This document shows positions 3,133 through 45,162 of a stretch of 45,162 nucleotides of DNA, one piece after another; position 1 is the first letter of the stretch, and each line of letters begins with the position of its first letter. Both the position numbers and the translations under genes were made by a program. A model generated the notes under the pieces. The model had not been told where the DNA came from. It was given only the letters and a program-made list of their open reading frames with translations, and did not search any database. The DNA comes from Anaerovibrio sp. JC8 (GTDB lineage Bacteria; Bacillota; Negativicutes; Selenomonadales; Selenomonadaceae): the NCBI RefSeq assembly GCF_002100115.1, contig NZ_ANBM01000015.1:1-45162 (forward strand). The letters run 5' to 3'.

Positions 3133-4536
3133 CTACACCTCTTTTAGCAAATCCTTAAGTTTATTGATGTTCTTCAAATATTTAAGTCTGTAATTCCTAC
3201 AATTACCTTCCAACCATTTAATTTCACCCTTTTCGATGGTATAAACATCATGATTAGGTAACCAACGGTAGAACCCCCGATAGTTGTGTAAGAACAAACC
3301 CGAATTATCACTTACAGAATAATAATCAGATGCCAAAATATAAGAATCAGAAGCCAAACCTTCACTAAGACGCATACTATTGTTATTTGTTATCGTTGCA
3401 TTGTATTCGTCTAAATTCCACATTACTGACTGTCGTGCTTCTGAGTAAGGTTGAGGTTGAGCAGTATAAGGTTGATAAAATTTTGAATATGTTTTACTGC
3501 CAGCAAAAGGTTGAAAATAAATGTTTACATTATTGTTAGAGGCTGTTGCCTTTAATAGTGTTTGCTTATTATGCAGAAAAATTTGGGTGTTATTTTGCGA
3601 GTCAAAGACTATGCTTGCCCCAGCTATTCCTTCAACCTGGTCGACAATAACCCCAGCATCGCGTATTTTGCGTTTTGGATTACCCTGAGCGTCTAAGTCG
3701 TTAAAATCAGGAAAGACTTCATACATTTTGCTGTCATTTTCCCCTTCGTCACTTACACGGTCATGAATGATGTCATACTCAGAAACTACTGATAACAGCC
3801 TGTGATTTGATTTCGTTGTTATCCAAACATTCCACGAGCCGTCAGGGTGAACATTGCCGCTAATTAGGTCGGTGCGTATTTCGTCTCTTTGCCTTGTAAC
3901 TCTTGTCTTTTCATAGTATGGGTTACCTTGCAGCATTGATAGGCCTATAGATGACAAGTTTTTGGCTTCACTGCCATATTTGTCATAAAACCCTTTCCAA
4001 TCTACTTCACCTATAATCTCACCATTCTTCCGAATATAAACGGGTGCAGGATTTTTGTGGTCATTATATGAATCGAGAAAAGGCATCGAACCCATCTGGA
4101 GATTGTCACGAGTATCAAAGCCGAGCTCAAGCAAATCACCTTTGTCATTAACGCAAGCATCAAGTGTGTACCAATTATCGCCTGCATATTCTACAGTCTT
4201 CTCACCGTACCAATGCTTATCTTTACAGACATAGACATATTTGTCATTATTAACAATGTTCTCTACTCCACTACACTCAATGGTTTTATAATTTTTGAAT
4301 TTTCTATTGTATATGCGAATAATCCCCTTTTCACTATCAGTCAGATAAGGGATACCACCCGTGATGATTGGAATATAACTTTGACTGCCTGTATATGAAT
4401 TTCCATAAAGGATTTTGCCATCAGTCCATACCTGCTGCCCCGGTACTATAACACCACTGCCAGCAACATAGAAAGAGCGGCCGTTAACATCGGCCGCCAT
4501 GTTTCCATTTACGGATGAAATTGTCGTTTGATACAT
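3133..4536 (-). CDS. Tail tip or receptor-binding region protein
   Basis: About 467 residues from the ATG at 4536, which overlaps the stop of the preceding tail gene as TGATG, a sign of translational coupling. GAGGTGGT stands just before it. The sequence is rich in Asn, Tyr, Ser and Asp with short beta-strand patterns, as in phage fibre and baseplate proteins, and has no membrane segment. Its place after the DT-repeat tail protein and before the lysis genes is where host-recognition proteins of siphophages lie. I do not recognise a named domain; a role in adsorption is inference. Confidence 0.5.
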   Translation of the reverse strand: MYQTTISSVNGNMAADVNGRSFYVAGSGVIVPGQQVWTDGKILYGNSYTGSQSYIPIITGGIPYLTDSEKGIIRIYNRKFKNYKTIECSGVENIVNNDKYVYVCKDKHWYGEKTVEYAGDNWYTLDACVNDKGDLLELGFDTRDNLQMGSMPFLDSYNDHKNPAPVYIRKNGEIIGEVDWKGFYDKYGSEAKNLSSIGLSMLQGNPYYEKTRVTRQRDEIRTDLISGNVHPDGSWNVWITTKSNHRLLSVVSEYDIIHDRVSDEGENDSKMYEVFPDFNDLDAQGNPKRKIRDAGVIVDQVEGIAGASIVFDSQNNTQIFLHNKQTLLKATASNNNVNIYFQPFAGSKTYSKFYQPYTAQPQPYSEARQSVMWNLDEYNATITNNNSMRLSEGLASDSYILASDYYSVSDNSGLFLHNYRGFYRWLPNHDVYTIEKGEIKWLEGNCRNYRLKYLKNINKLKDLLKEV

Positions 4537-6551
4537 CAATACCACCTCACAAGCTGAATACTCTGCTTCAGCTCTCTTGTTGTCTGGCTAACAGTATTGC
4601 TTACCAGATAATACTCATGCTTCCGGAATCTGACTCTTTCAGAAAAATCAATCACATGACCATAGTTATAGATATCCATGGTGACTGTTTCCTTGACCTT
4701 CCTATTAAGCCATTTTAGCTCACTGAGATAAGCCTCCAATTTATCCGTGTCAGAGGTTGGTACTTCCACAGATTCCTTCAGCCTGTTCCCTTTACCCAGT
4801 GGATTGTCTTTGTCACCATAGTTTGCGCCACCCAATGTTATGGATTCCTGGTTATGAAGATATCTGGATGCAGCTGCAGCTGGGGATCCAGTTCCTATGG
4901 AGCTACCAGCAAATTCCCCGTCAACATAGACTGATGTGCCGTAAAATCCACCACCCAGAGGAGCATGAACTGTCTTTCTGACACTCTCTTTGCCATCCTT
5001 GTCAGTAGTAATTTCTACTTCCTGCCCCAGGACTAGGACACCGCTTTTACTATTGGAATAATCATAGGTTGTAACAGTTTTGCTACCATCAGTATGCTGG
5101 GTACTTTTCCTTGATAGATACTTGCTTATTCCAAACCCGTCCCCGGTATAATCATATGTGGTTATCTCTCCATTGTTTTCCTCACTGCGTAAATACCCTG
5201 ATTCGTAAGAACAGGTGGCATCGCCAAATTTTAATGTTCCCCAAAACGGAAGTGGCTCAACATAAAGTCCCCAGCCAGGATCATTACCGCTATCTATGCT
5301 GTTACTGGAGTAATTAATCATGCTTCTTTCCAGAGTACGATTAATAACTGGGCGGGTGTGTGCTGTATCAGTGATGTCAATGGTTCTGCTCTCATGTCCC
5401 CTCTGGATAACATTTAAGGAGTTATCATTGGTCCTCATGAACACATTTATAGCTTTGTGAGGAATAACACTAGACCACCCAAACAGACTGGATATAATAT
5501 TTTCATAGGTCTGGCCATCACCAATCCATGTTCCAGAATGAACGAAATCATCACAGCGATAAACCAGCTTCTTTCCCAATGCTCCGGCTATACGCGATGC
5601 GTGTTCAGACAGCTTGTGAGTTTGCTGACCAAATCCATAGTTGATGCTACGATACAGAATTTCATCCACATCATACATCCCCTTGGCCGTAATAATCCTG
5701 TCCTGTTGCATGGTTTCCCCTACCCGATAGAGATAAGGAAAATCCAGTATCTTACCACTGACATAATCAAGGATACTTATATCATCCGTTGTCTCAAGAG
5801 TGAAGGTATCTGCCAGGGTTAATTCTTGAAGATTCAAAGATATGGATACCATGCCAGACTTTTCCTTTTGCACTACAGGCCGAAACGGATTACTGATAAT
5901 TGTATCCATTGGAATTGTTGTGCCACGTGGAATGCTGATACAGGTATCGAAGTACAGCCTACTATCAGCCAATGTGCCGATAAGGATGTCATAATGTCTT
6001 GTTACCTTCTGAGGAACTACAACATCAACAACGGTATCATGATAATTTATAAAGTCACTTTTAATACCCGTGTATATATCATAATAATGCTCTATACCGG
6101 CTTTTAAGTTGATATTGGTATCATAATTTTTTTCCAGAGCCTGCTGAATATTGGCATAAGTATCAAAGCAATAAGACTTCAGATCTTTAGGTTCAATTTC
6201 CAACGCTGTATCATAACACTGATTTACGTCTTTTTTTATAGTTATATCTGTATCATAGTTATGTTTTGTATCAGCCTGTAAATTAATACCAGTATCAGCA
6301 TTAATATTTACATCCTGCTGCACAATTAAAGCAGTATTATGATGTTGTGCTATGTCTGCACTGGCATTTACAGTAGCATCAAAGTAATAGCTTTCAGCCG
6401 TGGACGGTACAACTGTTACAAGTATTCGAGGCGTGGTAATACTAGATTTATTTATAATACCCGTTGCCAGTATTCGCGGAGTACTTATGGCAGAATTTTT
6501 TACAACTGCTGTCGTTAATATTCGTGGGGTGCTTATTCCACTTGTTGACAT
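4536..6551 (-). CDS. Modular tail protein with N-terminal STPRIL and DT repeats
   Basis: 671 residues. Residues 6-48 contain three copies of a 16-17 residue unit centred on STPRIL or TTPRIL. Residues 55-220 hold about eight imperfect units with a recurring Y-D-T followed by an alternating hydrophobic strand and D. The remaining 450 residues resemble a phage tail-tip protein: a segment with LDFPYLYRVGETM, then a Gly-rich stretch, and a C-terminus ending in VSQTTRELKQSIQLVRWY. The repeats would make an elongated beta stalk. The following gene is coupled through TGATG. This is probably the tail-tip hub carrying a stalk; the exact role is not proven. Confidence 0.6.
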   Translation of the reverse strand: MSTSGISTPRILTTAVVKNSAISTPRILATGIINKSSITTPRILVTVVPSTAESYYFDATVNASADIAQHHNTALIVQQDVNINADTGINLQADTKHNYDTDITIKKDVNQCYDTALEIEPKDLKSYCFDTYANIQQALEKNYDTNINLKAGIEHYYDIYTGIKSDFINYHDTVVDVVVPQKVTRHYDILIGTLADSRLYFDTCISIPRGTTIPMDTIISNPFRPVVQKEKSGMVSISLNLQELTLADTFTLETTDDISILDYVSGKILDFPYLYRVGETMQQDRIITAKGMYDVDEILYRSINYGFGQQTHKLSEHASRIAGALGKKLVYRCDDFVHSGTWIGDGQTYENIISSLFGWSSVIPHKAINVFMRTNDNSLNVIQRGHESRTIDITDTAHTRPVINRTLERSMINYSSNSIDSGNDPGWGLYVEPLPFWGTLKFGDATCSYESGYLRSEENNGEITTYDYTGDGFGISKYLSRKSTQHTDGSKTVTTYDYSNSKSGVLVLGQEVEITTDKDGKESVRKTVHAPLGGGFYGTSVYVDGEFAGSSIGTGSPAAAASRYLHNQESITLGGANYGDKDNPLGKGNRLKESVEVPTSDTDKLEAYLSELKWLNRKVKETVTMDIYNYGHVIDFSERVRFRKHEYYLVSNTVSQTTRELKQSIQLVRWY

Positions 6552-38515: not shown

Positions 38516-39556
38516 TTAAAACGGAATTTCATCATCGGAAACAACACCAACAACATCGTCCTCCAGGTCTCCATTCATAAAGGCATCAATCGCATACATA
38601 ACATCCTTATTTAATTTTGGATGCTTCATTCGGTCCTTTACGGTTGCAAAAAGCGTCTCCAAAAGAGGTGCCAGAGGAGTATCATCTTGAGAAGTAAACA
38701 AGAATTGCCGTCCATTAAACGGAATAGAAATCCATGCTTCTTTTGCATATGGGGCAGAAAAGTCGTTACCACTTCCACATGCCTCAATATCCATTAAATA
38801 AAGTCTTGTACCGTTCTTAAGCCTAAGATTAAAACAATCACCAGCAATAGATGTTTCACGGCCAAACGATTTTGAATTAAAAACAATACGAGTTACTTCG
38901 TTAGGATAAGCAGAGCCATTCTCCTCACGGAAGGTTTCAAAACTAAACAATGGATGTTCTATGTCACCATCACGATCTACATCAATGTGATTAAGATCAT
39001 CTACAGTTTCTCTAACCCAATCCAGCTTATCTGCAAGTGTATCCTCTTTCAACTTATCAAAAAATTTAGCAATATATTGTTCTGTTGGAGTTAAATCAGT
39101 AAGATCGACAGAAATCAAAGTGTCAATACTTACATGAAGCAATTTTGCAGCGGAAACAACAAACTCCACACTTGGTTCGGCAGTGTTTCCCTCTTTTTCT
39201 AATCGCGACATATACCCTAGACGGACACCTGCTTCACGTTCAATTTGGCCAATCTTAACATCGTTATTCTTACTGATAAGCTCACGAATATTTGAGAAAC
39301 AAACTTTTTTGTCGAAATTCTTATAATCCTCAAGTAGTTTTTTCAAGGAAGAAATAAGCTGACGTACCTTATTGAGCTTCTTAGCTGATACATCATCATC
39401 CTGTTCACCAGAAGTTATAGCAGCATCGAGGTCTATTTCATCATTTATTCTAGTTTCCTCTTTCTCAAGTTCTTCAAGCCGGTCGATTAATTCCTCTTTG
39501 GTGTAATCAAAAAACTCCGCGAATTCAATATCACTTTCCATCTCTTCTAAATCCAT
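38516..39556 (-). CDS. XRE-type transcriptional regulator with acidic N-terminal extension and unknown C-terminal domain
   Basis: 346 residues. ATG 39556 is preferred because GAGGGG lies nine bases upstream; ATG 39565 is too close to it. Residues 1-85 are acidic coiled coil. The helix-turn-helix is near residues 88-145 (IRELISKNNDVKIGQIEREA, GVRLGYMSRLEKEGNTAEPS). The C-terminal 170 residues are an alpha/beta domain I do not recognise (SFGRETSIAGDCFNLRLKNG, KEAWISIPFNG). The extension before the HTH is unusual. It lies after hsdR behind a terminator and has its own promoter, so it may control the RM locus or the neighbouring repeats. Confidence 0.75.
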   Translation of the reverse strand: MDLEEMESDIEFAEFFDYTKEELIDRLEELEKEETRINDEIDLDAAITSGEQDDDVSAKKLNKVRQLISSLKKLLEDYKNFDKKVCFSNIRELISKNNDVKIGQIEREAGVRLGYMSRLEKEGNTAEPSVEFVVSAAKLLHVSIDTLISVDLTDLTPTEQYIAKFFDKLKEDTLADKLDWVRETVDDLNHIDVDRDGDIEHPLFSFETFREENGSAYPNEVTRIVFNSKSFGRETSIAGDCFNLRLKNGTRLYLMDIEACGSGNDFSAPYAKEAWISIPFNGRQFLFTSQDDTPLAPLLETLFATVKDRMKHPKLNKDVMYAIDAFMNGDLEDDVVGVVSDDEIPF

Positions 39557-39587
39557 AGCAGTCATCCCCTCGTATCATTATGCAATA

Positions 39588-39774: not shown

Positions 39775-42700
39775 TCAATCTCTATACTTCTTGAAATTCT
39801 CAGCTTGCTCCAGCACCTCTTTATATGCTTCATCAATTGCAACAGGTGGGTACCCGTTGTCATCAAGAACTATAATGAGGTCGGCCTGGAGTTCTGCCTT
39901 TATATCATCACGGGTGAAACAATCGGCATACTTGGATTTATCATCAACAATCTTCTTGATTTCCTGGGCCAAGAAAATCATTTTATCATGCGGATATTCG
40001 AATCCGAACTTCTTGGCCACAGCATCCAAAATATCATAAAATGCCTTTTCCTCGAAATTTATCCCCATATTTTCGTATGAGTTTTTCTCTGCTTTCAGTT
40101 GCTGTAACAAATCAGCCAATTGGTCAGCCACATCTCCAAGTACTTCATTGGCAAATGCCTCATCTCCGCTACGGTCATTATAACTGTTAACGACCTGCTG
40201 CAAACGCTCTGAAAACTCAACGCCTTTAATCTTGTTTACCTTTTTAAATTCCTCAATAGCCTGAGACAATAGCTTTTGCAGTAGCTTAATCTTAGTATTA
40301 GGGAATTTAATATGCGAAATTCTGTCCATGTATTCATCAGAGAACAGGTCAATGGACACATTTTTCCCGGCTGAGAACAATTCCTCTATTCCATCTGATA
40401 AGATAGCTTCTTCCACCATTTTCTGAACATGAGCATTCATTTGGGAGATATCCGGGGCATCACCCTTGGTCAACTTAAACAAAATAGAGCGAATGGCTAT
40501 ATAAAAATGAATCTTATCCCGCTCATCATCTGTTATATCTTCACTGGAGGTGCAAAGGCTAAACGCCTGCTTTAGTCTTTTGACCGCTGCCATAAACCGA
40601 AGTTCCAAATCTTCAGTCATTTGAACATACTCTACGGCTCTATTAAGACAGTATAGCTGTTCTTTAGGTGATCCTTTGAAATAGTCACTCGCATTAAAAG
40701 AGTAGAACATTTTGTTAAGTACATCCAGTTGATCCTTAACAATAGTTACAGACTGCTCTATCCCCTCAAAGGAACCTCCTTGGAAATTGGTATACTTAGC
40801 CAAAGCATTATTCATGTTTTTCCTTATACCAATATAATCAACAATAAGCCCCTTGTCCTTTCCGGCATAAACCCGGTTAACACGAGAAATGGTCTGTATA
40901 AGAGTATGCTGTTGGATAGGCTTATCAATATAAATAGCATCAAGGAAAGGTACATCAAAACCAGTTAGCCACATATCGACAACAATAGCTATTTTAAAAT
41001 TCGACTTGATATTTTTAAACTGCCTATCCAGTTCCTTCCTATCTTCCTTTTTTCCCAGCTTATTAAATAGGTCGGGTTCATCGTCCTTATTGCGTGTCAT
41101 TACCATACACACTTTTTCTATAGGTTTTAACTCCTTAGCTTCTTTTTCGGAAAGTTTAATACCATCAGGGGCAAGTGCCTTCTTTCCCCATTCAGGACGA
41201 AAATCCAATAAAATCTGGTACAACTGGAAAGCAATTTTACGATTTGCACATACAAACATAGCCTTGCCAGCTACAGTTGCACCTTCCTCAACTCGTTTTT
41301 CATAATGTTCAATAAAATCCTTGGCAACGGCATTTAGTCTATCAGGATCCCCCAATATTGCCTCTAAATGAGCAACTGCCTTTTTACTTTCTTCTATTTG
41401 GTATTCATTGGCACCTTCTTCTGCACAACGAGAATAGTATTCCTCAATCTCCTTTACCTTGGAGCTGTCCAAGATAACCTTAGCCGCACGTCCCTCATAT
41501 ACCAAATTAACTGTTATGCCGTCTTTAACGGCCTCAGTCATAGTATAAGAATCTACCACCTCACCAAATACATTGATTGTGGCATCGATAGGGGTTCCAG
41601 TGAATCCCACATAAGTTGCATTCGGTAAAGAATCATGCAGATGCTTAGCAAAGCCATACTTTTTCTGTACGCCTGTTTTTGTGACTACAACTTTTTGGTC
41701 CAAATTGACCTGAGAGCGATGTGCCTCATCAGAAATGCAGATAATATTGCTACGTTCGGAAAGCAAAGAAATATCCTCAGAAAATTTCTGTATAGTTGTA
41801 AGGAAAACACCGCCACTCGTCCGGCCATTCAGTTCATTACGCAATGCATCCCTGGAACTAATGCTAACCACCTTTTCGTCACCAATAAAAATTTTAGAAG
41901 CTGTAAATTGCCCAGAAAGCTGGTCATCCAGATCAGTCCTGTCAGTGATGATTATGATAGTAGGGCTATGAAAATGTGAATCCTTCATAATCATACGGAC
42001 AAGAAATAGCATTGTATAACTCTTGCCGCAACCCGTAGCACCAAAATAAGTACCACCCTTACCATCTCCAACTGGCTGCATATGAAGTTTTATATTATCC
42101 AATAGCTTAGTTGCAGCAAAAAATTGAGGGTAACGACACACTATTTTTAATTCCTTGTGTGACTGGTCAGGGAAATAAATAAAATTCTTCACTACAGATA
42201 GCAGTCGATCCTTGCGGAATAACCCCTGAACCATTGTAACTAAAGAATCAATACCGTCCAAGTCATTGTCTGTAGGCTCTACCTTTCGCCATGCATAGAA
42301 AAAATCATACGGACTAAACAGGGAACCATATTTATTGTTTACTCCATCACTAATAACTACGAACGCATTGTAAATGAACAAGTTTGGAATATCCCTTTTG
42401 TAACGAACTGTAAGCTGGGTATATGCGTCCATAATGGTAGTATTTTCATTTGACGCCGTCTTAAATTCAAGCACCACCAATGGTAATCCATTTACATATA
42501 CAATTGCGTCAGGAATGCGAGTCTGCTCATAGCCTTGTATCTCCACCTGGTTCACTATTTTAAAAATATTGCTATCTGGCTCCTCATAGTTTATCAGACT
42601 GACATAAATATCTTTTTGACTACGGTCATTACGAGTAAATATAAATCCGTCCATCAAAAGCCTAATGAACGCCTTATTGGCTTCATATAAAGAACCAGAA

Positions 42701-42909
42701 ATAGCATTTATTTTATGGATTATAGCTTCAATCTCTCCGTTAGTTAAACCATCAGAACTGTACCTAGTTGCCAAGTATTGCCTAATATCATCTTCCAGTA
42801 AAACGACAGACTTATCCCTATGTATATCCGTACCAGGTAAATAGGTATAATTTTCTTCTTTAAAAAGTTCTATTATAGAATTTTCCAAGGCTTGTTCATT
42901 GAATTTCAT
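39775..42909 (-). CDS. hsdR: Type I restriction enzyme, restriction/translocase subunit HsdR
   Basis: 1044 residues, full length. The nuclease (DAIVYVNGLPLVVLEFK near residue 135) carries the D and ExK of the PD-(D/E)XK fold. Helicase motifs follow: GATGCGKSYTM near 290, ITDRTDLDDQL, DEAHRSQ near 390, VGFTGTPI near 435, and a second RecA domain with DMWLTGFDVPFLDAIYIDKP and QTISRVNRVY. It translocates DNA and cuts it when HsdS meets unmethylated sites. GGAGT lies nine bases before the start. The gene stands downstream of the hsdS halves on the same strand; hsdM must lie past the right edge. Confidence 0.96.
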   Translation of the reverse strand: MKFNEQALENSIIELFKEENYTYLPGTDIHRDKSVVLLEDDIRQYLATRYSSDGLTNGEIEAIIHKINAISGSLYEANKAFIRLLMDGFIFTRNDRSQKDIYVSLINYEEPDSNIFKIVNQVEIQGYEQTRIPDAIVYVNGLPLVVLEFKTASNENTTIMDAYTQLTVRYKRDIPNLFIYNAFVVISDGVNNKYGSLFSPYDFFYAWRKVEPTDNDLDGIDSLVTMVQGLFRKDRLLSVVKNFIYFPDQSHKELKIVCRYPQFFAATKLLDNIKLHMQPVGDGKGGTYFGATGCGKSYTMLFLVRMIMKDSHFHSPTIIIITDRTDLDDQLSGQFTASKIFIGDEKVVSISSRDALRNELNGRTSGGVFLTTIQKFSEDISLLSERSNIICISDEAHRSQVNLDQKVVVTKTGVQKKYGFAKHLHDSLPNATYVGFTGTPIDATINVFGEVVDSYTMTEAVKDGITVNLVYEGRAAKVILDSSKVKEIEEYYSRCAEEGANEYQIEESKKAVAHLEAILGDPDRLNAVAKDFIEHYEKRVEEGATVAGKAMFVCANRKIAFQLYQILLDFRPEWGKKALAPDGIKLSEKEAKELKPIEKVCMVMTRNKDDEPDLFNKLGKKEDRKELDRQFKNIKSNFKIAIVVDMWLTGFDVPFLDAIYIDKPIQQHTLIQTISRVNRVYAGKDKGLIVDYIGIRKNMNNALAKYTNFQGGSFEGIEQSVTIVKDQLDVLNKMFYSFNASDYFKGSPKEQLYCLNRAVEYVQMTEDLELRFMAAVKRLKQAFSLCTSSEDITDDERDKIHFYIAIRSILFKLTKGDAPDISQMNAHVQKMVEEAILSDGIEELFSAGKNVSIDLFSDEYMDRISHIKFPNTKIKLLQKLLSQAIEEFKKVNKIKGVEFSERLQQVVNSYNDRSGDEAFANEVLGDVADQLADLLQQLKAEKNSYENMGINFEEKAFYDILDAVAKKFGFEYPHDKMIFLAQEIKKIVDDKSKYADCFTRDDIKAELQADLIIVLDDNGYPPVAIDEAYKEVLEQAENFKKYRD

Positions 42910-42929: not shown

Positions 42930-43595
42930 TTGTATCTGAAACATGAGGGTATATTAAATGATAATTTAGAAGCTACAATACAAGCAATATTTACGGAATT
43001 TTACATGAGAAACTGTCATATCCAGTGCCAGTTATCAGATTTATGTACCTTGTGTTCAAGTAAGCGGGTTTTTGCTGATGATTATGTTGATAATGGTATT
43101 CCATTTTATCGTGGAGGCGAAATAACGCTAAAACAAAAAGGGCAGCCTGTTAATGATCCTTTATTTATATCAGATGCTCATTTTAAAGAACTTAAAGAAA
43201 AATATGGAGCACCAATTAAAGATGATATTTTGATAACTGCTGTTGGAACAATAGGAAATAGTTATCTTGTTGATCGTGAGAATTTTTATTTTAAGGATGG
43301 AAATATCATTTGGCTCAAAGACTTCTCCAAATATGAATATAGGTTTTTTATATATGACTTTATGCAATCTAGTTTATTTCAATCTTCTCTTGAAGCAATT
43401 AGCATAGGTTCTACACAAACAGCATTAACCATAGCAGCACTTTCTGATATAAAAGTTTTGGTACCAATTTTTGACAAACTTAAAAGCTACGCTAAACAAA
43501 GTTCGATGATTCGTAAAAATATACAACAAAATAATATGGAGTTAGAAGAATTACACCATATGTCCGAATTTATTTTGTCATCATTAAACCGCTAA
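42930..43595 (+). CDS. hsdS: Silent HsdS C-terminal half-cassette (second target recognition domain)
   Basis: Open frame of 221 codons with no proper start; only a TTG without a ribosome site opens it. The meaningful part begins at NDNLEATIQAIFTEFY, the conserved central helix of HsdS, then a target recognition domain (GIPFYRGGEITLKQKGQPVN, DILITAVGTIGNSYLVD, STQTALTIAALSDIKVLVPI) and a C-terminal helix (NNMELEELHHMSEFILSSLN). The repeat at each end is exact and inverted (42955-42969, 43592-43606). The stop codon TAA lies inside the right repeat. Inversion would join it in frame to the N-terminal half at 43606-44078, giving a 370-residue HsdS. In the current orientation it is not expressed. 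Confidence 0.85.
   Translation: MYLKHEGILNDNLEATIQAIFTEFYMRNCHIQCQLSDLCTLCSSKRVFADDYVDNGIPFYRGGEITLKQKGQPVNDPLFISDAHFKELKEKYGAPIKDDILITAVGTIGNSYLVDRENFYFKDGNIIWLKDFSKYEYRFFIYDFMQSSLFQSSLEAISIGSTQTALTIAALSDIKVLVPIFDKLKSYAKQSSMIRKNIQQNNMELEELHHMSEFILSSLNR
42955..42969 (+). repeat. Recombination repeat, left copy
   Basis: TAAATGATAATTTAG, coding the NDNL of the HsdS central helix on the plus strand. Its exact reverse complement is at 43592-43606. Confidence 0.85.
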
Positions 43596-44078
43596 ATTAT
43601 CATTTATCTTTTGTTTAAGCTTAATTCGGTCATCTATTATACGACTATATCTCACCAACTCTTTTTGCCGTTCCATTGAAGGTAAATCTATAGGGTATTC
43701 AGCAATATTAGCATACCTACAATACTCCCGCACTGACCCCGACCCAACAAAAGCGCAAAAACGTCTAAAGTTATCAGTTTTTACAATCATTTGAAGATAA
43801 TCCGGTAAAACCAAGCTGCTCTCTTTCACATAAAAAATTTCATAAAGTGACGAACAAATAGCTTTATCATAATTATCATTTAATGCTATTGAATTAAGCT
43901 CCATTCTGGCGGGATTAAAAATAAAATCGTTATGATACAGGACATTGTATATTGAAATATCTGCTTCCTGCTGTTTGGGAGGTATTATTCCATCCTTGGA
44001 GACACCACATATTGGTAATTCCCCACCTGAATATTTTTCTCTTCGTTGTTCTGTCAAGTCTCCCAATTTATAAATCAT
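43584..44078 (-). CDS. hsdS: Expressed HsdS N-terminal half (first target recognition domain)
   Basis: 164 residues, less than half of a normal HsdS (about 370-420). It has one target recognition domain (MIYKLGDLTEQRREKYSGGE, VLYHNDFIFNPARMELNSIA, FVGSGSVREYCRYANIAEYP) and the central helix (ERQKELVRYSRIIDDRIKLK). It stops two codons past the repeat motif NDNL. The start has GAGGTG seven bases upstream and follows the recombinase stop by nine bases, so they are coupled. In this orientation the subunit would recognise only half a site; some half HsdS proteins work as dimers. Inversion of the downstream segment restores a full gene. Confidence 0.85.
   Translation of the reverse strand: MIYKLGDLTEQRREKYSGGELPICGVSKDGIIPPKQQEADISIYNVLYHNDFIFNPARMELNSIALNDNYDKAICSSLYEIFYVKESSLVLPDYLQMIVKTDNFRRFCAFVGSGSVREYCRYANIAEYPIDLPSMERQKELVRYSRIIDDRIKLKQKINDNLAV
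43592..43606 (-). repeat. Recombination repeat, right copy (inverted)
   Basis: CTAAATTATCATTTA, the exact reverse complement of 42955-42969. It codes NDNL for the minus-strand hsdS half and holds the TAA stop of the plus-strand cassette. Confidence 0.85.
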
Positions 44079-44087
44079 CGTAACACC

Positions 44088-45071
44088 TCATGATATATAT
44101 TTTCTATGTGCCAGTTTAACATTACTTTGCTTAACCATTGCATATTGTAAGGTAGTATCTATTCTCTGATGCCCAAGAAGCTTCTGGAGTTGCTCAATGG
44201 GCATCCCCTTATCTATAGCCATAGTGGCTAGTGTTCGTCTAAATTTATGTGGATGAACCTTATCCACTCCCAAATTCTTCCCTAAATTTCGCAATCTCAC
44301 CTCAATTCCGCCTATATTCATACGATTGTATGGAGCATTAAGGCTGACAAACAATGCCACATTATCATCAACTCTACTATCAAGATATTTCTGAAGATGC
44401 ATTTTTGTGCGAGCGTCAAAGTACACCACTCGTTCCTTATCGCCTTTACCCAAAACAATACACTCACGTTCGTTAAAATCTACATCATCACGATTTAGAT
44501 TTACCATTTCTCCCACACGCATACCAGTTGAGGCGAGCATATCTATCATAGCCAAATCCCGTATTTCTCTGCACCCATCCCTCATACATTCCAAATCCTC
44601 GTCAGAATAGGTTTCCTTTACAGTTTTAGCCGTCTTGACCTTATGAATACGCCGCACTGGGCTTTTTATTATATAATCCTCATCTTCCAGCCAGCTAAAA
44701 AAAGACGATAATATACGCCTAATATTATCAATAGTAACCTTGCTGGAATTGTGTCTGCTCTGATAATCTGACAAATACCCCCGCAGGTCATCAGTAGTAA
44801 TATGTTTTACACTTTTCTCAAGCATTTCAAGCATCTTTCGTATTGTATTCTCATAATATGAAAGGGATTTGGGTGAGCAACCTTCGATACGCTTGGCTGC
44901 AAGAAAACAATCAACATACTCTATTTCATCATCCTGAAGTTGTCCACTTTCCTGAACATCGTAATTACCTAAGCAAACGCATAATGTACTATGTAACACC
45001 TGCAACTGACTGTTATCAATTACTTTTAACATTTGCTGTTCAATATCCGCTATAAGTTTCTCTTTCATCAT
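44088..45071 (-). CDS. Tyrosine recombinase, probable hsdS invertase
   Basis: About 327 residues; ATG 45071 or 45068, behind GGAGGGCG. An N-terminal SAM-like DNA-binding domain (YVDCFLAAKRIEGCSPKSLSYY) precedes the catalytic domain. Arg185 in TGMRVGE, Lys209 in VLGKGDKER, His275-x-x-Arg278 in HPHKFRR, His301 in LLGHQ and Tyr310 in LQYAMV form the complete active site. The size and XerC-like order match recombinases that invert hsdS genes in other Firmicutes. It lies directly before the hsdS half and beside exact inverted repeats. It could instead be a phage integrase, but phage integrases are usually beside the phage end. Confidence 0.88.
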   Translation of the reverse strand: MMKEKLIADIEQQMLKVIDNSQLQVLHSTLCVCLGNYDVQESGQLQDDEIEYVDCFLAAKRIEGCSPKSLSYYENTIRKMLEMLEKSVKHITTDDLRGYLSDYQSRHNSSKVTIDNIRRILSSFFSWLEDEDYIIKSPVRRIHKVKTAKTVKETYSDEDLECMRDGCREIRDLAMIDMLASTGMRVGEMVNLNRDDVDFNERECIVLGKGDKERVVYFDARTKMHLQKYLDSRVDDNVALFVSLNAPYNRMNIGGIEVRLRNLGKNLGVDKVHPHKFRRTLATMAIDKGMPIEQLQKLLGHQRIDTTLQYAMVKQSNVKLAHRKYIS

Positions 45072-45148
45072 TCGCCCTCCAATCATAATTAGAGAACGAA
45101 TTTCATAGGCTTTCTATTAAGTGGCTGTCACCATTACCAAATGAAGTA

Positions 45149-45162
45149 AAATGATAATTTAG
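45149..45162 (+). repeat. Third copy of the recombination box at the window edge
   Basis: AAATGATAATTTAG, identical to the core of the left copy and in the same direction. The plus strand beyond this edge probably holds another half-cassette. With the copy at 43592 it is inverted, so a second inversion including the recombinase gene is possible. Confidence 0.6.

Follow-up and report, generated by a model that had tools for sequence, protein, structure and literature searches.

The type I restriction-modification locus at the right end of the analysed DNA is very probably a four-site shuffler, with two fixed hsdS 5′ halves, two mobile 3′ cassettes that they have in common, and inverted sites. 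The locus is predicted to change which DNA sequence the restriction enzyme recognises, via swaps of half-genes. The stretch analysed, called the window below, comprises 45,162 bp and is the entire contig C15 of a 2.68-Mb genome of Anaerovibrio sp. JC8 in 33 contigs.

Repeat pair, cassette 2 and hsdS-B in the window

The original prediction had described a single invertible hsdS pair, in which exact 15-bp inverted repeats surround an HsdS half-cassette without a start. Such repeats were found as site 4 at 42955–42969 (+), with the sequence TAAATGATAATTTAG, which has hsdR on one side and the open end of cassette 2 on the other, and as site 3 at 43592–43606 (−), an exact copy of TAAATGATAATTTAG that lies at the end of the hsdS-B 5′ half. 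The arms are 622 nt apart and enclose cassette 2 (x; 42970–43591, +), a 3′ recognition domain of hsdS (Methylase_S, E 1.7e-9). Past the repeat, the cassette frame lacks its own start codon; the ORF called mechanically opens at a TTG at 42930, ahead of the repeat. Its forward stop, TAA at 43593–43595, lies within site 3, so the repeat supplies the stop of the silent half as expected.

The hsdS-B 5′ half (43584–44078, −; 164 aa) is an ORF with a Pfam Methylase_S match (E 7.1e-5). It has its own ATG, with GAGGTG 5 nt upstream, and starts 9 nt past the recombinase gene. Cassette 2 is reversed relative to hsdS-B, which is consequently a half, with N-D-N-L-A-V as its C-terminal end in the present state. 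The inverted repeats are placed so that inversion would link the recognition domains in frame; fusion of hsdS-B with cassette x gives a frame of 370 aa, exactly the length foreseen, and fusion of hsdS-A with the same cassette gives 379 aa.

The restriction subunit gene hsdR (39775–42909, −; 1044 aa) was identified as an ORF by Pfam (HSDR_N, SWI2_SNF2, T1RH-like_C), PADLOC (REase_I, 1223.5 bits) and NCBIfam (hsdR, above cut-off). A repressor-like gene at 38516–39565 adjoins it, and the minus strand of positions 1–38500 is prophage-like, with matches to endolysin, tape measure, portal, terminase, helicase and DNA polymerase. The IMG/VR viral record that covers this contig includes the restriction locus of about 5.4 kb at its right end.

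The recombinase gene (44088–45086, −; 332 codons plus stop) encodes a tyrosine recombinase of 332 aa (Phage_integrase, E 1.3e-31), which also scored above the NCBIfam XerA-type cut-off. Residues R190, H280, R283, H306 and Y315, which we take to be the catalytic residues of the recombinase, were invariant across 14 relatives. This enzyme is likely to be the one that shuffles the locus.

Probable remaining part of the locus on contig C9

The exact 14-mer of the repeat was present in four copies in the readable genome, that is, the assembly apart from contigs C26–C33 (517–1429 bp), eight contigs which read as N. A control pattern, the 14-mer read backwards, gave no copies. Besides the site pair in the window, copies were located at the end of C15 and at the end of C9. 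Site 2 (45149–45162, +) consists of the final bases of C15 and covers 14 of 15 bases, differing from the 15-bp repeat at one base. Site 1 lies at 85990–86004 of C9, whose end is at 86004, and follows hsdM and hsdS-A. In the locus record of this contig (L016), hsdM occupies 3934–5508 (+; 524 aa), and the hsdS-A 5′ half starts from an ATG at 5492 (+), overlaps hsdM and is open into the repeat, with 171 aa up to the contig end. A search of solved structures with hsdS-A gave no match at E 0.1.

Because the ends of C9 and C15 enter the repeat in the same sense, they do not share a common copy, and a site-bounded cassette is expected between them. We infer that the two contigs are adjacent with one cassette between them; this cassette 1 was not found in the readable assembly, C26–C33 reading as N. 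With that adjacency, the type I gene set is complete: the window contains hsdR and hsdS halves, and C9 ends with hsdM followed by hsdS-A. Both contigs break on sites, and the locus is larger than the window, in which hsdS-B alone of the two hsdS genes can be seen. The original prediction of a single inverted pair gave way to four sites and probably two cassettes. The half-subunit state that it assigned to the locus holds for hsdS-B, though not for the locus as a whole, given the hsdS-A 5′ half next to hsdM on C9. Nor is the 5′ half in the window the only candidate for the expressed one, as hsdS-B follows the recombinase gene and hsdS-A overlaps hsdM. Among comparable relatives, 78 of 83 combine a half B with a full A or the other way round, and hsdS-A is on this basis predicted to be full in the strain of the window, with hsdS-B half.

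The same genome carries a second type I system on contig C5 (L007, 4047–9345), with a 498-aa HsdS in one frame, an HsdM and, recognised by eye, a 781-aa HsdR-like protein.

Survey of related loci

Among 552 recombinase relatives in genome_contigs, the best 80 showed 68–78% identity in the best segment. Firmicutes supplied most of these 80, alongside some MAGs under the labels Prevotellaceae, Cyanobacteria/Gastranaerophilales, Spirochaetia and Oxalobacter. Further loci were taken from IMG/VR and whole-genome searches, while a search of 398 Bacilli genomes at E 1e-130 returned the starting genome as sole match. The locus region of an Anaerovibrio slackiae record (L096) was identical to the one on contig C43 of G001, a genome of the same genus as that of the window.

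The 219 loci comprised 97 distinct ones with the site order + − recombinase + −, 11 duplicates and 111 without two sites on each side, some of the last being truncated by contig ends and others being distant relatives in which the site pattern fails. The most likely gene order in the genome of the window runs from hsdM and the hsdS-A 5′ half through cassette 1 and the recombinase to the hsdS-B 5′ half, cassette 2 and hsdR. Where found, hsdM was mostly upstream and hsdR mostly downstream on the strand of the recombinase. Median lengths in the 97 loci were 668 and 673 nt for the cassettes, 100 nt from site 2 to the recombinase and 542 nt from the recombinase to site 3. The start of hsdS-B was at most 40 nt from the recombinase stop in 92 of the 97 loci, and it was preceded by a Shine-Dalgarno-like stretch in 65.

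The site was TAAAYNNNAATTTA in most loci and encodes I-N-X-N-L. The central codon X varied between loci (D, N, E, K and, more rarely, others) and was constant among the copies found in each locus, a constancy partly built into the search, as the site pattern demanded one identical centre per locus and would miss unlike centres. A site centre shared within a locus and variable between loci is, as we assume from tyrosine recombinases in general, the look expected of a strand-exchange centre. A pattern-free repeat search returned the same four positions in most of the first 80 loci; the repeat-based search gave no result in most of the more distant relatives.

Several variants of the layout were noted. 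Enlarged versions were represented by L040, with six sites and two recombinase genes, and L111, with five sites. A minimal version occurs in Latilactobacillus sakei plasmid pRV500 (L281, 6389–8921), where the recombinase and hsdS-B face hsdS-A and hsdM over one shared cassette with two sites; B is full and A half, and a single inversion would pass the cassette from B to A. Two whole contigs, L085 (3222 bp) and L090 (3240 bp), have a site at each end, a site directly after the recombinase and an hsdM that runs in the opposite direction, which is another layout. In L177, L181, L183 and similar distant loci, two copies in direct orientation were seen, one of them close behind the recombinase, perhaps by chance and perhaps as a tvr-like arrangement. 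Methanosphaera plasmid pNP174 (L279, 7004–8002), an archaeal plasmid, carries a 57% identical recombinase with no restriction genes annotated nearby.

The hsdS-B of L034 matches the hsdS-A of L037 at 95.2%, indicating that 5′ domains are exchanged too. No second repeat pair at the hsdS 5′ end stood out in the window, yet L034 and L037 have their A and B domains exchanged.

Rearrangement between identical flanks

The locus family rearranges, as is evident from four Lactococcus plasmids that are 100% identical in hsdM (1460 nt compared), hsdS-A, the recombinase, hsdS-B and the downstream DNA (1489 nt) and carry the cassettes in three arrangements. In pJM2A and pUC073A, cassette P is forward behind A and cassette Q reversed behind B, and in pUCCL627F the forward cassette behind A is Q and the reversed one behind B is P. 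In pJM1A a reversed P follows A, a second P follows B in forward orientation and Q is missing; this record could be a collapsed assembly. Opposite cassettes were kept in all four. Together with an intact recombinase and relatives in the same layout, these plasmids support the proposal of a recombinase-driven hsdS switch.

Of the Ligilactobacillus salivarius megaplasmid loci, two had B full, one had both genes half (BNS11) and one had three sites and extra genes; Enterococcus faecium pW142 and MT835621 had B full. None of the Lactococcus, L. salivarius and E. faecium plasmid records entered the Fisher table given below.

Twenty contig ends fall inside the region among the first 80 loci, and five of them lie within 5 bp of a site. 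Of these five, two belong to one contig (L083) and two to L085 and L090 with their other layout; breaks of this kind may also arise in other ways. The contig L083, from Roseburia inulinivorans (3051 bp), starts and finishes on site copies and so spans sites 1 to 4.

One full and one half hsdS gene

In 86 loci the recombinase points away from hsdM, and 83 of them were callable (all except L047, L132 and L255). A was full and B half in 39, A was half and B full in another 39, both were full in one (L046) and both were half in four (L037, L087, L211 and L238). Exactly one full and one half hsdS gene were therefore observed in 78 of 83 loci (Fisher p 7e-18). In L211 the same cassette occurs twice (616 nt, 100%), which may reflect an assembly error; no alignment over 300 nt was obtained between the two cassettes of a locus in the other 96 loci. 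No internal stops were detected in the recombinases of the five exceptions, nor in that of L098, the single reversed-module locus whose cassettes are alike.

The pattern is not explained by relatedness. A quick recombinase tree of the 83 loci requires at least 32 changes of state. When pairs placed on separate supported branches were compared, the second cassette had changed in the opposite sense in a median of 10 of 11 cases and in no case in the same sense (sign test, median p 0.002). A set of 23 four-site loci was picked by hand on contigs longer than 1 Mb: 18 were called recombinase-forward, nine in each state and with no exceptions, two had the module reversed and three were not fully called.

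The module was reversed relative to hsdS-A in 8 of the 97 loci. One full gene is automatic there, and the cassettes were still opposite in seven of the eight, the call for L125 being doubtful. Opposite cassettes were present as well in three loci whose hsdS-A escaped recognition.

Termination of the half subunit

In 154 of 191 cassettes the reversed reading runs for six codons, the first N of N-X-N-L being codon one, before it meets a stop, and the commonest ends are N-X-N-L-A-A and N-X-N-L-V-A. The usual spacing, with the forward stop 7 nt before the site core, was found in 144 of 191 cassettes. With this spacing, the stop of the reversed reading requires a pyrimidine at the end of the cassette's last sense codon, which was present in 144 of 144 cases, where codon use in the rest of the cassettes predicts 92.5; the nominal p-value of 2e-28 is inflated by the common ancestry of cassette ends. 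The last amino acid of the cassette was nonetheless varied (L, I, D, F, V and others). The cassette in the window belongs to a rarer class in which the stop overlaps the site (an offset class of 15 among the 191 cassettes), so that a stop inside the repeat is the minority form.

Judged by these sequence features, the half subunit looks intended. It might act, for instance, as a dimer, for which EcoR124I is cited in the tvr paper (PMC6265443). An apparent dimer of half subunits in that same paper was considered and set aside, being ascribed there to another methyltransferase.

Proposed mechanism and what may maintain the pattern

In the proposed mechanism, the fixed 5′ halves would be hsdS-A, overlapping hsdM, and hsdS-B, behind the recombinase gene. 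Each cassette would lie between inverted sites of 14–15 bp, which also encode the I-N-X-N-L at the joint. A cassette facing its 5′ half would yield a complete HsdS, and with a reversed cassette the half would be cut short a few codons on. Recombination among the four sites, presumably performed by the recombinase of the locus, could produce A-y, A-x, B-y and B-x as well as the two halves.

Enumeration of moves between the sites gave exactly one full gene in every recombinase-forward state when 1x2 and 3x4 were left out, and none, one or two full genes when they were included. It follows that either the reaction avoids flips of single cassettes or selection removes the resulting products. Of these two, selection is somewhat ahead.

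An even chance is given to the reading in which any opposite sites recombine, single cassettes flip, and cells with zero or two full genes are lost by selection. The contigs of the genome of the window break at both joints of cassette 1 and leave the joints of cassette 2 intact, as would be expected from cassette 1 flipping in place in the culture. The same cassette is flipped within the same slot between the relatives L131 and L152 (99.2%), and loci with both genes half or both full do occur (4 and 1 of 83), BNS11 being a further case of the former. However, selection for a working enzyme should purge the both-half state and not the both-full state, and both are rare; the opposite cassettes of the reversed-module loci, where a full gene is guaranteed anyway, also speak against it, with the reservation stated for L125.

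The pattern could instead be built into the reaction, with recombination almost only across the recombinase gene (1x4, 2x3, or 1x3 then 2x4 via a circle) and rarely by 1x2 or 3x4, a reading that is plausible and falls short of even probability. The outcome of the enumeration agrees with it, and the change from pJM2A to pUCCL627F requires just two moves, 2x3 and 1x4. Cassettes have changed slot and kept their sense in L080/L093, L041/L171, L062/L071 and L105/L171, and excision followed by reintegration is known for pneumococcal tvr (PMC6265443). Against a built-in rule, the four sites have one core and no site feature was found that would bar 1x2 or 3x4, and the contig breaks and the pair L131/L152 mentioned above suggest flips in place.

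Two further ideas were rejected. With the matched-end inversions 1x4 and 2x3 as sole moves, a reversed module is predicted in half of the loci, against 8 of 97 observed, and no change between A-full and B-full is predicted, at variance with the number of changes on the tree. A longer repeat between matched sites was likewise discarded as the cause, since the added identity between sites 1/4 and between sites 2/3 reflects how the cassettes are oriented.

A broader form of the built-in reading is put forward tentatively and is rather doubtful: the reaction itself would keep the cassettes opposite in a widespread shuffler whose sites fall below the 20-bp limit of a published survey, and one complete subunit and one deliberately terminated half would always be present. 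The locus would then be an exclusion device and not an on/off switch, with the half as a product itself. Its probability was lowered because of the contig breaks in the window's own genome.

It is unlikely that the locus is locked in the strain of the window, as a former switch with cassette 1 lost or the recombinase silent. The absence of cassette 1 from the readable assembly and the one base by which site 2 deviates would fit such a state, whereas hsdM, hsdR, the recombinase and all hsdS halves seen are open frames, and contigs that terminate exactly on sites fit several arrangements in culture. A still weaker proposal, that the recombinase is the integrase of the prophage in the left part of the window and has nothing to do with the repeats, draws on the IMG/VR listing of the entire 45162-bp contig as viral and on the lack of another integrase noticed by eye among the ORFs (some of which were scanned against family libraries), and it is very improbable, given that relatives with about 70% identity sit between hsdS halves and that hsdR separates the recombinase from the phage-like genes.

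A switch of type I specificity alters phage defence and can alter methylation-dependent gene expression. Were exactly one full subunit retained as its partner domain is exchanged, a cell could take on a new specificity without a gap or a doubling. Such loci are easily overlooked, as their sites measure only 14–15 bp and short-read contigs may break right on them, as was the case here.

Comparison with known systems

Recombinase-driven hsdS shuffling is well known (PMC4948785, PMC7096588, PMC6265443, PMC4783014, PMC6122466, PMC7394358). In the literature searched, with subscription papers mostly outside it, no account was found of a four-site layout that pairs one full with one half gene.

The pneumococcal cod/Spn556II (SpnIII) locus with PsrA shares with the present family a tyrosine recombinase in the locus, a 15-bp inverted repeat (IR1) and the exchange of the hsdS 3′ part by inversion (PMC4948785, PMC7096588). 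It has three hsdS genes, three repeat types (15, 298 and 85 bp) and one functional hsdSA. The family of the window, unlike SpnIII, has one site type in four copies and two 5′ halves with their own starts, either of which can be full, as found for A and for B in relatives. The parallel with SpnIII drawn in the original prediction is sound in kind, but hsdSA alone is described as functional in SpnIII (PMC7096588).

The pneumococcal tvr/SpnIV locus with TvrR resembles the family in having hsdM, hsdR and a tyrosine recombinase flanked on each side by hsdS segments, two and two (PMC6265443). Its repeats all run in the same direction and its segments move by excision and reintegration; expression was found for the upstream hsdS only, and a toxin-antitoxin pair lies beside tvrR (PMC6265443). 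By comparison, the sites alternated as + − + − in the 97 relatives, and those in the window lie at 42955 (+), 43592 (−) and 45149 (+).

In the hsd locus of Listeria monocytogenes ST8, a tyrosine recombinase lies between two hsdS genes, and four arrangements occur among strains (PMC4783014). That hsdS pair is oppositely oriented, with two different repeat pairs (16 and 29 nt) placed at the 5′ end and the centre (PMC4783014), whereas A and B are usually co-oriented in the present family and the sites lie at the centre and past the 3′ end. LreRMII of Limosilactobacillus (Lactobacillus) reuteri, with lsrA, likewise combines hsdR, hsdM, two hsdS genes and a recombinase, and rearranged clones were obtained; each hsdS is listed with two recognition domains in the strains shown, and two conserved repeats are reported (PMC6122466).

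A REBASE survey of duplicated hsdS genes with inverted repeats counted 875 of 22,107 hsdS genes (PMC7394358). Repeats of at least 20 bp were required and shorter ones were missed by the survey's own statement, whereas the core here measures 14–15 bp; some loci of the four-site family may nevertheless be included in it. Gut inverton group 145, from Bacteroidota and Firmicutes_A, has inverted repeats over restriction subunit S genes and a tyrosine recombinase (PMC11892184), and it may include the four-site family. Taken together, the family is of the PsrA/tvr/Listeria hsd kind and is not identical to any of the three.
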